Shown: positions 19,016 through 58,002 of the stretch, in pieces | Layout of the letters: the number at the start of each line of letters is the position of its first letter | Numbering within the stretch: position 1 is the first letter of the stretch | Assembly: GCF_964204865.1 (NCBI RefSeq) | Contig: NC_135252.1 | Location: 23,705,383-23,769,382 of the forward strand | DNA from: Styela clava | Taxonomy: Eukaryota; Chordata; Ascidiacea; Stolidobranchia; Styelidae | Direction: 5' to 3' | Length of the DNA: 64,000 nt | Translations under genes and position numbers: made by a program | Notes under the pieces: model-generated | Seen by the model: the letters and a program-made list of their open reading frames with translations, nothing else | What the model was told of the DNA's origin: nothing | The model's database searches: none

Positions 19016-19088
19016 CATCTTCGCCGGGACTCGAACCCGGAACCTCTGGATTAAAAGTCCAGCGCGCTATCCATTGCGCCACGAAGAC
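19016..19088 (-). tRNA. Arg-body tRNA with UUU (Lys) anticodon, otherwise perfect
   Basis: Differs from the Arg(UCU) consensus only at base 35 (C to U). All stems, A and B boxes and discriminator G are intact, so nothing in the gene suggests silence. Confidence 0.85.
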
Positions 19089-19230
19089 TCGCAAGGTTTA
19101 ATCGAATCCCGATCTCCCGGGTGGCAGGCGAGAAATCTACCACTGAAACACCATTGCTCGTTGCGCAATAGGTTATCGTTTCACTCTCGATTGCATTTTG
19201 ATGTTAATATATTAATAAAACAAGATTAAA

Positions 19231-19312
19231 CGCTGCGAGCAGGGTAAGAACCTGCGCGGGAATATCCCGCTGGATTTCTAGTCCAACGACCTAATCACTC
19301 GGTCATCACAGC
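19231..19312 (-). pseudogene. tRNA-Ser(AGA), slot A type II
   Basis: T loop UUCUUAC. Confidence 0.5.
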
Positions 19313-19574
19313 TTCTCTGCTAGTAACTTGTGGTTCACAGACTTTGTCTCTTTAGTAATAATTTGAAAAATAGATAAGCATAATTTTAAAAAATACATAA
19401 GCAATGTATATTGATGGGAAAGATGTATTAATTAGAATTTAAAATGTATTCTTGATTAGAAGTCCAGTGCGCTATCCATTGCTACACGAAGTCTCGTAAC
19501 TTTTATTAGAAAACAGAACATTTTCCATATTTCGTACCATGAATTATTATCAAATTCTTGAATATATTATGAGC

Positions 19575-19645
19575 TGCATTGGCCGGGAATCGAACCCGGG
19601 CCTCCCGCGTTGCAGGCGAGAATTCCACCACTGAACTACCAATGC
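19575..19645 (-). tRNA. Gly-body tRNA with GCA (Cys) anticodon
   Basis: Plus strand GCGTTGCAGG gives loop CTGCAAC. D-arm changes also present; near terminator lost. Confidence 0.6.
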
Positions 19646-19718
19646 TCGTTCGCGGTAGGTTATCTTTTCACTCTCGACTGCATTTTAATGTTTTTACCTT
19701 AAATAAAACAAAATTAAA

Positions 19719-19800
19719 CCCTGCGAGCAGGGTACGAACCTGCGCGGGAATATCCCGCTGGATTTCAAGTCCAACGCCTTAATCACTCGGTCATCACAGC
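19719..19800 (-). tRNA. tRNA-Ser(UGA), A type after Gly
   Basis: A 488-base recombinant unit puts an A58U Ser directly after Gly. Confidence 0.45.
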
Positions 19801-20062
19801 TTCTCCTCTAGTAACTTGTGGTTCACAGACTTTGTCTCTTTAGTAATAATTTGAAAAATAGACAAGCATAATTTTAAAAAATACATAAGCAACGGATATT
19901 GATGGGAAAGATGTATTAATTAGAATTTAGAATGTATTCTGGATTAGAAGTCCAGTGCGCTATCCATTGCGCCACGAAGTCTCGTAACTTTTAATAGAAA
20001 ACAGATCTTTTTCCATATTTCGTACCATGAATTATTATCAAATTCTTGAAAATATTATGAGC

Positions 20063-20133
20063 TGCATTGGCCGGGAATCGAACCCGGGCCTCCCGCGTGG
20101 CAGGCGAGAATTCTACCACTGAACCACCAATGC
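20063..20133 (-). tRNA. tRNA-Gly(GCC), consensus
   Basis: Identical to reference, T4 present. Confidence 0.95.
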
Positions 20134-20206
20134 TCGTTCGCGGTAGGTTATCTTTTCACTCTCGACTGCATTTTAATGTTTTTACCTTAAATAAAACAAA
20201 ATTAAA

Positions 20207-20288
20207 CCCTGCGAGCAGGGCTCGAACCTCCGTGAGAATATCCCGCTGGATTTCAAGTCCAACGCCTTAAGAACTCGGCCATCACAGT
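20207..20288 (-). tRNA. tRNA-Ser(UGA), slot B
   Basis: A1:G72. Confidence 0.45.
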
Positions 20289-20338
20289 TACTACGTTAGT
20301 GATTTGTGGTTCAATGTTCATATGTTTACAAAATTAAA

Positions 20339-20420
20339 CGCTGCGAGCAGGGTTAGAACCTGCGCGGGAATATCCCATTGGATTTCAAGTCCAACGCCTT
20401 AACCACTAGGCCATCACAGC
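20339..20420 (-). tRNA. tRNA-Ser(UGA), slot C
   Basis: T loop UUCUAAC (G57U); D arm ACTAGGCC. Confidence 0.45.
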
Positions 20421-20549
20421 TTCTACTTTAGTAACTTTTGATATACAGATTTTATCTCTTTGGTAAAATTTAAAAAATACATAAGCAACGGATATTGGCG
20501 GGAAAGATGTATTAATTAGAATTTAAAATGTATTCGCATAAATGAACAC

Positions 20550-20622
20550 CATCTTCGCCGTGACTCGAACCCGGAACCTCTGGATTAGAAGTCCAGCGCG
20601 CTATCCATTGCGCCACGAAGAC
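20550..20622 (-). tRNA. tRNA-Arg(UCU)
   Basis: One T-stem mismatch (CCGTG). Confidence 0.8.
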
Positions 20623-20764
20623 TCGCAAGGTTTAATCGAATCCCGATCTCCCGCGTGGCAGGCAAGGAATCTACCACTGAAACACCAATGCTCGTTGCGC
20701 AATAGGTTATCTTTTCACTCTCGATTGCATTTTGATGTTCATATGTTAATAAAACAAGATTAAA

Positions 20765-20846
20765 CGCTGCGAGCAGGGTACGAACCTGCGCGGGAATATC
20801 CCGCTGGATTTCAAGTCCAACGCCTTAACCACTCGGCCATCACAGC
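20765..20846 (-). tRNA. tRNA-Ser(UGA), A/C hybrid
   Basis: A-type 3' two-thirds (A58U), C-type D arm; 426-base short unit. Confidence 0.5.
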
Positions 20847-20975
20847 TTCTACTTTAGTAACTTTTGGTATACAGATTTTATCTCTTTAGTAAAATTTAAA
20901 AAATACATAAGCAACGGATATTGACGGGAAAGATGTAATAATTAGAATTTAAAATGTATTCGCATAAATGAACTC

Positions 20976-21048
20976 CATCTTCGCCGGGACTCGAACCCGG
21001 AACCTCTGGATTAAAAGTCCAGCGCGCTATCCATTGCGCCACGAAGAC
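20976..21048 (-). tRNA. Arg-body tRNA with UUU (Lys) anticodon, otherwise perfect
   Basis: Only C35U separates it from consensus. Confidence 0.85.
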
Positions 21049-21190
21049 TCGCAAGGTTTAATCGAATCCCGATCTCCCGGGTGGCAGGCGAGAAATCTAC
21101 CACTGAAACACCATTGCTCGTTGCGCAATAGGTTATCTTTTCACTCTCGATTGCATTTTGATGTTAATATATTAATAAAACAAGATTAAA

Positions 21191-21272
21191 CGCTGCGAGC
21201 AGGGTAAGAACCTGCGCGGGAATATCCCGCTGGATTTCTAGTCCAACGACCTAATCACTCGGTCATCACAGC
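21191..21272 (-). pseudogene. tRNA-Ser(AGA), slot A type II
   Basis: T loop UUCUUAC. Confidence 0.5.
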
Positions 21273-55910: not shown

Positions 55911-56052
55911 TCGCGAGGTTTAATCAATTCCCGATCTCCCGCGTGGCAGGCGAGGAATCTACCACTGAAACACCAATGCTCGTTGCGCAATAGATTATCT
56001 TTTCACTCTCGATTGCATTTTGATGTTCATATGTTAATAAAACAAGATTAAA

Positions 56053-56134
56053 CGCTGCGAGCAGGGTACGAACCTGCGCGGGAATATCCCATTGGATTTC
56101 AAGTCCAACGCCTTAATCACTCGGTCATCACAGC
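56053..56134 (-). tRNA. tRNA-Ser(UGA), slot A with C-type anticodon arm
   Basis: A58U. Confidence 0.48.
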
Positions 56135-56396
56135 TTCTCCGCTAGTAACTTGTGGTTCACAGACTTTGTCTCTTTAGTAATAATTTAAAAAATAGACAAG
56201 CATAAATTTAAAAAATACATAAGCAACGGATATTGATGGGAAAGATGTATAATTAGAATTTAAAATGTATTCTGGATTAGAAGTCCAGTGTGCTATCCAT
56301 TGCGCCACGAAGTCTCGCAACTTTTAATAGAAAACAGATCTTCTTCCATATTTCGTACCATGAATTATTATCAAATTTTTTGAAAATATTATGAGC

Positions 56397-56467
56397 TGCA
56401 TTGGCCGGGAATTGAACCCGGGCCTCCCGCGTGGCAGGCGAGAATTCTACCACTGAACCATCAATGC
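56397..56467 (-). tRNA. tRNA-Gly(GCC)
   Basis: G7A; T loop G57A (AATTGAA). Confidence 0.7.
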
Positions 56468-56540
56468 TCGTTCGCGGTAGGTTATCTTTTCACTCTCGAC
56501 TGCATTTTAATGTTTTTACCTTAAATAAAACAAATTTAAA

Positions 56541-56622
56541 CCCTGCGAGCAGGGCTCGAACCTCCGTGAGAATATCCCGCTGGATTTCAAGTCCAACGCC
56601 TTAAGAACTCGGCCATCACAGT
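56541..56622 (-). tRNA. tRNA-Ser(UGA), slot B
   Basis: A1:G72. Confidence 0.45.
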
Positions 56623-56672
56623 TACTACGTTAGTAATTTGTGGTTCAATGTTCATATGTTTACAAAATTAAT

Positions 56673-56754
56673 CGCTGCAAGCAGGGTTCGAACCTGCGCG
56701 GGAATATCCCATTGGATTTCAAGTCCAACGCCTTAACCACTCGGCCATCACAGC
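56673..56754 (-). tRNA. tRNA-Ser(UGA), slot C
   Basis: GCAAGCAGG change. Confidence 0.8.
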
Positions 56755-56883
56755 ATCTACTTTAGTAACTTTTGGTATACAGATTTTATCTCTTTAGTAA
56801 AATTTAAAAAATACATAAGCAACGGATATTGGCGGGAAAGATGTATTAATTAGAATTTAAAATGTATTCGCATAAATGAACAC

Positions 56884-56956
56884 CATCTTCGCCGTGACTC
56901 AAACCCGGAACCTCTGAATTAGAAGTCCAGCGCGCTATCCATTGGGCCACGAAGAC
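56884..56956 (-). tRNA. tRNA-Arg(UCU), weakened
   Basis: Duplicate of 53746-53818. Confidence 0.45.
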
Positions 56957-57098
56957 TCGCAAGGTTTAATCGAATCCCGATCTCCCGCGTGGCAGGCGAG
57001 AAATCTACCACTGAAACCCCAATGCTCGTTGCGCAATAGGTTATCTTTTTACTCTCGATTGCATTTTGATGTTCATATGTTAATAAAACAAGATTAAA

Positions 57099-57180
57099 CG
57101 CTGCGAGCAGGGTACGAACCTGCGCGGGAATATCCCGCTGGATTTCAAGTCCAACGCCTTAATCACTCGGTCATCACAGC
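57099..57180 (-). tRNA. tRNA-Ser(UGA), slot A
   Basis: A58U. Confidence 0.5.
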
Positions 57181-57442
57181 TTCTCCGCTAGTAACTTGTG
57201 GTTCACAGACTTTGTCTCTTTAGTAATAATTTGAAAAATAGACAAGCATAATTTTAAAAAATACATAAGCAACGGATATTGATGGGAAAGATGTATTAAT
57301 TAGAATTTAAAATGTATTCTGGATTAGAAGTCCAGTGCGCTATCCATTGCGCCACGAAGTCTCGCAACTTTTAATAGAAAACAGATCTTTTTCCATATTT
57401 CGTACCATGAATTATTATCAAATTCTTGAAAATATTATGAGC

Positions 57443-57513
57443 TGCATTGGCCGGGAATCGAACCCGGGCCTCCCGCGTGGCAGGCGAGAATTCTACCACT
57501 GAACCACCAATGC
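57443..57513 (-). tRNA. tRNA-Gly(GCC), consensus
   Basis: Identical to reference. Confidence 0.95.
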
Positions 57514-57586
57514 TCGTTCGCGGTAGGTTATCTTTTCACTCTCGACTGCATTTTAATGTTTTTACCTTAAATAAAACAAAATTAAA

Positions 57587-57668
57587 CCCTGCGAGCAGGG
57601 CTCGAACCTCCGTGAGAATATCCCGCTGGATTTCAAGTCCAACGCCTTAAGAACTCGGCCATCACAGT
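57587..57668 (-). tRNA. tRNA-Ser(UGA), slot B
   Basis: A1:G72. Confidence 0.45.
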
Positions 57669-57718
57669 TACTACGTTAGTGATTTGTGGTTCAATGTTCA
57701 TATGTTTACAAAATTAAA

Positions 57719-57800
57719 CGCTGCGAGCAGGGTTCGAACCTGCGCGGGAATATCCCATTGGATTTCAAGTCCAACGCCTTAACCACTCGGCCATCACAGC
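57719..57800 (-). tRNA. tRNA-Ser(UGA), slot C consensus
   Basis: Matches reference. Confidence 0.94.
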
Positions 57801-57929
57801 TTCTACTTTAGTAACTTTTGGTATACAGATTTTATCTCTTTAGTAAAATTTAAAAAATACATAAGCAACGGATATTGACGGGAAAGATGTAATAATTAGA
57901 AATTAAAATGTATTCGCATAAATGAACAC

Positions 57930-58002
57930 CACCTTCCCCGGGACTCGAACCCGGAACCTCTGGATTAAAAGTCCAGAGCCCTATCCATTGCGCCACGAAG
58001 AC
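57930..58002 (-). tRNA. Arg-body tRNA with UUU (Lys) anticodon
   Basis: Duplicate of 54792-54864. Confidence 0.45.

Follow-up and report, generated by a model that had tools for sequence, protein, structure and literature searches.

Arginine-type tRNA genes with a UUU anticodon in a tandem tRNA array of Styela clava are most likely drifting spare copies

A tandem tRNA array in the ascidian Styela clava holds many arginine-type tRNA genes whose anticodon is that of lysine, UUU, and these copies are most likely drifting spares rather than agents of a changed codon reading. The window, by which we mean the whole stretch of DNA that was analysed, is 64,000 nucleotides of contig NC_135252.1 (C3:23705383-23769382), in a genome of 376.6 Mb and 379 contigs; its positions 1..59117, on the minus strand, are the right end of an array of ~274 kb at C3:23490245-23764431. 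We observed directly the UUU copies, their linkage to neighbouring variants, the damage that they carry, the low constraint on their class, and intact genes elsewhere in the genome. We put the probability at about 0.8 that these copies represent neutral drift of the anticodon, spread by the duplication of units in a redundant array.

UUU copies in the array and their linkage

According to ARAGORN there are 243 tRNA genes in the window and 1,074, only 12 of them on the plus strand, in the joined 344 kb that follows the array leftward beyond it. A BLAST map gives ~1,046 bp as the commonest repeat spacing, with units on the minus strand that contain Arg, truncated Gly (bases 1-58), Ser, truncated Arg (3-44), Gly, Ser, and Ser genes. 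There are 258 full-length Arg bodies in the array: 202 have the anticodon TCT, 51 have TTT (16 in the window and 35 upstream of it), 2 have TTC, and TAT, CCC, and CCT occur once each.

The initial annotation described 16 Arg-type genes in the window with a UUU anticodon, four of them otherwise perfect, and this description holds: ARAGORN reads TTT at 16/16 on the minus strand, the bodies are Arg-type, and the copies at 19016, 20976, 26073, and 34639 differ from the array consensus solely by C35T. The remaining 12 have 1 to 5 changes beyond C35T. The Arg-bodied copies, as given by ARAGORN and comparison with the consensus, are listed here together with two related copies (ARAGORN) and a neighbouring Ser gene; T4 denotes a run of four T.

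15453..15525, minus strand: Arg body, TTT; C56G in the B box
16499..16571, minus strand: Arg body, TTT; A21G, C56G
19016..19088, minus strand: Arg body, TTT, otherwise consensus; T4 at +22
20976..21048, minus strand: Arg body, TTT, otherwise consensus; T4 at +22
22936..23008, minus strand: Arg body, TTT; two stem pairs broken
26073..26145, minus strand: Arg body, TTT, otherwise consensus; surroundings near-identical to those of 34639
29604..29676, minus strand: Arg body, TTT; G9A, G52C
31076..31148, minus strand: Arg body, TTT; C6T, C66G, A71G
34639..34711, minus strand: Arg body, TTT, otherwise consensus; surroundings near-identical to those of 26073
38170..38242, minus strand: Arg body, TTT; G9A, C50T, G52C
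40317..40389, minus strand: Arg body, TTT; G9A, C50T, G52C
41363..41435, minus strand: Arg body, TTT; G29T, anticodon-stem pair broken
42398..42470, minus strand: Arg body, TTT; C6T, C66G, A71G
43869..43945, minus strand: Arg body, TTT; five acceptor-stem pairs broken
54792..54864, minus strand: Arg body, TTT; C23G, G26T, C66G, A71G
57930..58002, minus strand: Arg body, TTT; haplotype identical to 54792
46617..46689, minus strand: related copy, anticodon TTC (Glu-type)
50608..50680, minus strand: related copy, anticodon TTC (Glu-type)
19231..19312, minus strand: Ser(AGA) with an altered T loop, TTCTTAC; example of the neighbour linked to U35

All 16 window copies have the 7-base loop CUUUUAA around the UUU anticodon, as expected of a Lys(UUU) tRNA. 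Their bodies, however, place them outside the Lys gene family, being Arg-type and unlike those of the genome's Lys genes; the anticodon of one isotype sits in the otherwise recognisable body of another, which is the mark of an alloacceptor shift. The four perfect copies should not be counted as four independent cases. All have one body haplotype, and a distance of 8,566 bp separates the copies at 26073 and 34639, whose surroundings show an identity of 0.997 over 400 bp on either side, as if from one segmental duplication.

U35 travels with its neighbours. With plus-strand copies left out of the count, a Ser(AGA) gene with an altered T loop lies ~143 nt upstream of 17/18 U35 copies in the window (15/16 TTT and 2/2 TTC), compared to 1/39 UCU copies. 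Upstream of the window, a T-stem pair broken by A62 is common to 35/35 TTT copies; of these 35, 5 have T4 at +22, and 30 have their first T4 at +73 to +75. Private flank sites mark both the window group and the upstream group. Judging by the Ser(AGA) linkage, A62, and these private sites, duplication of whole units has carried U35 along on two or more backgrounds, for which two mutations and exchange between units would leave indistinguishable patterns. A single origin of the 51 UUU copies is only one possibility, given that flank sites differ and that bases 35 and 62 are found in each of their four combinations. Fewest-change counts on trees of the flanks yielded 10 and 11 changes at base 35; we take these as exchange between units and do not rely on them.

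Arrays are hard to assemble, and the U35 base might in principle be an artefact, but we found no specific support for this. The base travels with linked variants, so sequencing error is very unlikely as its source and was rejected on the strength of the linked haplotypes. U35 is phased with these variants and occurs in 25 distinct body haplotypes, and the chance that it stems from an error of either sequencing or assembly is next to negligible.

Condition of the array copies and related genes elsewhere

To score damage we used a structure test that requires every stem pair and a set of invariant bases. Across the whole array the test is passed by 4/51 UUU copies and 88/202 UCU copies, a difference with a Fisher p of 5e-7 on copies, which are related so that this value overstates their independence, and of 0.022 on distinct haplotypes (1/25 versus 20/80). 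The intact stems and invariant bases expected of a functional Lys(UUU) tRNA are therefore not a property of the UUU class, either in the window (4/16) or in the array.

The Arg genes of the array as a whole vary about as much as fragments of themselves. We compared them with a control class, the Arg(3-44) fragments, whose truncation leaves them without the T arm. Over sites 5-41, pairwise diversity comes to 0.0361 for 245 full-length Arg genes (without base 35) and to 0.0365 for 243 fragments, counts that exclude 13/258 Arg copies with insertions or gaps and 9/252 fragments that are gapped or have missing sites. Diversity is 0.047 over the whole Arg body and 0.053 and 0.059 in the flanks. By this measure the Arg class is under low constraint, varying like dead fragments. 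Furthermore, U35 (53/258) and the stem-breaking C62A (51/258) have similar frequencies, and variants in the 3' spacer reach 122 and 109 copies.

Intact Arg(UCU) genes are found outside the array. A 28-place pattern centred on UCU, allowing up to 2 mismatches, so that UUU could also match and more damaged or intron-bearing genes would escape, hits 11 + 492 places genome-wide and 6 + 482 in the array; the 15 others lie on contigs C3, C4, and C16. All 15 have the anticodon TCT and all 15 pass the structure test; their mean distance is 0.012 in the body and 0.62 in the flanks, and the first T4 lies at +3 in 10 of them, at +10 to +16 in 4, and nowhere within 56 nt in 1. We take these genes for the working set. 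In contrast, 92/258 array Arg genes pass the test and 56/258 have a changed anticodon; among array copies that match the same 28-place pattern, 91/249 pass and 54 are changed (p 6e-7 and 0.046 against the outside 15). The clustered copies are thus more damaged than genes for the same isoacceptor elsewhere. A 72-base pattern for the U35 body matches 2 + 192 places genome-wide and just as many within the array, so that within 3 mismatches this body occurs nowhere outside the array.

The genome also has Lys(UUU) genes of its own, in a second large tRNA array at C2:15.88-15.99 Mb, where there are at least 45 matches, at least 40 of them full length (40 of 367 candidates were scored). We examined seven Lys(UUU) genes, six from the C2 match list and one from a separate search scored with Rfam; the anticodon is TTT in 7/7. 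Three of the seven have no stem mismatch, and the Rfam score of one of these recurs at 32 places on C2; to judge by score, further copies there are probably intact.

These data suggest a simple course of events. An array of Ser/Arg/Gly tRNA units would grow and turn over through unequal exchange and segmental duplication. With Arg(UCU) genes outside it and Lys(UUU) genes on C2 able to meet the cell's needs, selection on single copies would be weak. The replacement of C by U at base 35 in Arg bodies, found on two backgrounds, would then be copied with its unit and spread neutrally, and any tRNA made from the four intact copies would accept lysine and be redundant. The initial annotation had argued that amplification makes either decoding outcome, Arg or Lys at AAA, worthy of note. 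The amplified class does not bear this weight: the structure test rejects 47/51 UUU copies, variation in the class is on a level with that of dead fragments, and genes for both Arg(UCU) and Lys(UUU) exist elsewhere.

Apart from the relatedness of the copies, several observations weigh against neutral drift. In the window, a T4 run at +22, close enough to serve as a terminator for RNA polymerase III (Pol III), follows all 16 TTT copies. Among the window's tRNAs, the top Rfam score belongs to the perfect U35 copies, at 71.1 bits versus 70.6 for the UCU consensus. In the window alone the structure test shows no difference between UUU (4/16) and UCU (9/39) copies (p 1.0). The Lys(UUU) genes are not uniformly sound either, with no stem mismatch in 3/7 and one to three mismatched pairs in 4/7, and the C2 array may likewise be partly decayed. 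Finally, anticodon changes occur in 6/243 Arg fragments (2 of them TTT) versus 56/258 full genes, such that U35 is commoner than in the control. This excess may stem from two clonal expansions, which is how we read it; the presence of U35 on two backgrounds could also reflect a recurrent, favoured change.

Amino acid identity and alternative explanations

In mammals arginine identity depends on A20 and C35, and UUU is sufficient for human lysine identity, conferring lysine when transplanted into tRNA-Asp or the initiator Met tRNA (PMC9976931). The U35 consensus copies retain A20 but have lost C35 and have a full UUU loop. They share G73 with 7/7 and the anticodon loop with 6/7 of the genome's own Lys(UUU) genes that we examined, and 15/17 anticodon-arm bases with one of these (L034). 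Given that C35 is lost and that UUU suffices for lysine in human, lysine charging is likelier than arginine charging if the intact copies are transcribed, and an Arg-bodied UUU tRNA charged with lysine would be harmless and redundant.

One outcome raised in the initial annotation was that arginyl-tRNA synthetase (ArgRS) charges the UUU copies and so places Arg at AAA codons. The retention of A20, a determinant for mammalian ArgRS (PMC9976931), is consistent with this idea, as is the finding that a yeast Arg tRNA scaffold with CUU remained arginylated (PMC4742068). The yeast result was explained by a sliding of the anticodon determinants, which would account for the tolerance of CUU, and UUU would offer no C to slide. 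With C35, the other main determinant, gone, lysyl-tRNA synthetase (LysRS) would compete for the full UUU anticodon, which moved lysine identity onto two human tRNAs. We rejected the proposal, which would require ArgRS to charge a body without C35, and consider it very improbable.

The other outcome was that these are remoulded Lys tRNAs. On this view, Pol III would transcribe the four intact copies by way of their undamaged internal promoters, and the products, charged by LysRS, would read AAA as Lys beside the ordinary Lys genes. Their stems and invariant bases are intact, their A and B boxes presumably match the consensus, which we compared by eye, and T4 stands at +22. The likeness to the genome's Lys(UUU) genes in loop, anticodon arm, and G73 points the same way, as do the lysine identity that UUU confers on human tRNA-Asp and initiator Met (PMC9976931) and an Asn/Lys shift by the anticodon alone in Drosophila (PMC3923123). 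However, the four copies represent one body haplotype, two of them in near-identical surroundings; other Lys(UUU) genes are present; 47/51 UUU copies fail the test of structure; and the class is unconstrained. What survives of this proposal is the likelier identity of an intact copy, if one is made, and not a remoulded class; we regard working Lys tRNAs as unlikely. A slightly less likely variant is that the intact copies form a second type of Lys tRNA that is active only when the array is used, for example in oocytes or early embryos; if so, an Arg body would have been recruited to read AAA as Lys through one base change.

Selection, or some function unrelated to decoding, might instead lie behind the spread of U35; examples of such a function are the production of tRNA-derived small RNAs and chromatin boundary activity of the array. 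U35 is the commonest single variant of the Arg body, it occurs on two backgrounds, and it far exceeds TTT in the Arg fragments. Set against this are the nearly equal frequency of C62A, the still higher copy numbers of the 3' spacer variants, and the lack of T4 at +22 in 30/35 upstream U35 copies, which together leave such a role improbable, though less so than arginine charging. Neutral drift with unit duplication remains the reading that we prefer.

Nuclear anticodon shifts of this kind are known in eukaryotes, where position 35 is the commonest site of alloacceptor shifts, and which include an Asn/Lys shift by the anticodon alone (Rogers and Griffiths-Jones 2014, PMC3923123). There, as here, a single anticodon base alters the predicted isotype. 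The published cases are syntenic orthologues compared across species and filtered for stable structure, in contrast to the related copies of one array in one genome, most of whose UUU members are damaged. The SYY cluster of Arabidopsis resembles the present array in having tandem units of several tRNA genes beside separate, dispersed genes; among its Tyr genes, 13/54 clustered and 1/16 dispersed ones gave tRNA-like products (PMC12308677). It differs in that it is smaller, from a plant, made of other tRNA species, and transcriptionally silent in most tissues; the accessible part of that account notes no anticodon change (PMC12308677). The tRNA arrays of Entamoeba are also tandem units with several tRNA genes, but hold nearly all of its tRNA genes (PMC2652664), unlike S. 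clava with its intact Arg(UCU) genes outside the array. Large clusters of tRNA genes with pseudogenes are familiar from other animals as well: a 2010 survey reports animal genomes that hold thousands of tRNA genes and pseudogenes, many of them clustered, with large numbers in Nematostella, zebrafish, and stickleback; its accessible part does not treat anticodon subtypes inside one array (PMC2888827). The closest parallels are the eukaryotic anticodon shifts (PMC3923123) and clustered tRNA genes beside an intact set, as in SYY (PMC12308677). Among titles and abstracts, whose coverage is partial and does not prove absence, we found no report of UUU anticodons on Arg bodies within a nuclear array of tRNA genes.

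Where intact genes exist elsewhere, dozens of anticodon-altered copies can thus reside in a long tRNA array without any indication of a change in the code. Such an array is a natural mutant library. It also calls for caution in automated annotation, as ARAGORN lists 51 'Lys' genes in this one.

Other anticodon changes and features of the array

Anticodon changes in the same array extend to the Gly and Ser genes, with Gly to GTC in 11 copies and Ser to TTA in 9, TAA in 5, and TGT in 3 (Gly copies containing N were left out of the count). The nine Ser-bodied TTA copies lie upstream of the window at C3:23578369-23674071 (loci L008-L017) and would read the stop codon UAA. The B box is altered in eight of the nine (T loop 'TTGAA.'), the ninth has a broken anticodon-stem pair, and 0/9 pass the structure test. 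Taking all Ser-bodied copies with stop or missense anticodons together (17/746), 0/17 pass, compared to 127/708 UGA copies; this test of harm among Ser variants is not significant (p 0.054 on copies, 0.61 on haplotypes). It is a weak hint, and no proof, that harmful anticodons survive solely on damaged bodies. Outside the array, two lone Ser(UGA) genes on C4 (locus C4:21180500-21184500, positions 1255-1336 and 2498-2580) are identical to the array's best Ser consensus.

The eleven Gly-bodied GTC copies (Asp type) are at C3:23545412-23699264, and in 4 of them the three stems that were tested are free of mismatches. There are also three Gly-bodied GCA copies, one of them in the window at 19575-19645. 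A Gly gene truncated at base 58 precedes most Arg copies by ~11 nt on the minus strand (for example at window 1041-1181). This fragment still has A-box and B-box-like sequence, and Gly(1-58) and Arg might share one transcript.

A ~2 kb AT-rich insertion at window 27400-29470 splits one Ser tRNA copy. It recurs at ~35970-38030 and in part near 39100-40180, repeated along with the array, and has a CAGGGGTGGCCAA-like end with TCGAATATTCGAA near the opposite end; from this motif we take it to resemble a non-autonomous hAT-type element. To the right of the array, window 63178-63573 consists of 30-base tandem repeats. A Pfam search with four open reading frames (ORFs) in or beside the array, including the ORF at 63293-63682, returned zero matches.

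Elsewhere in the genome, a high-scoring 71-nt tRNA match is repeated at ~45 kb spacing on several small contigs (C54, C98, C125, C131, C138, C154, C191, C216, C296, C318, and others), as if it belonged to a long tandem repeat.

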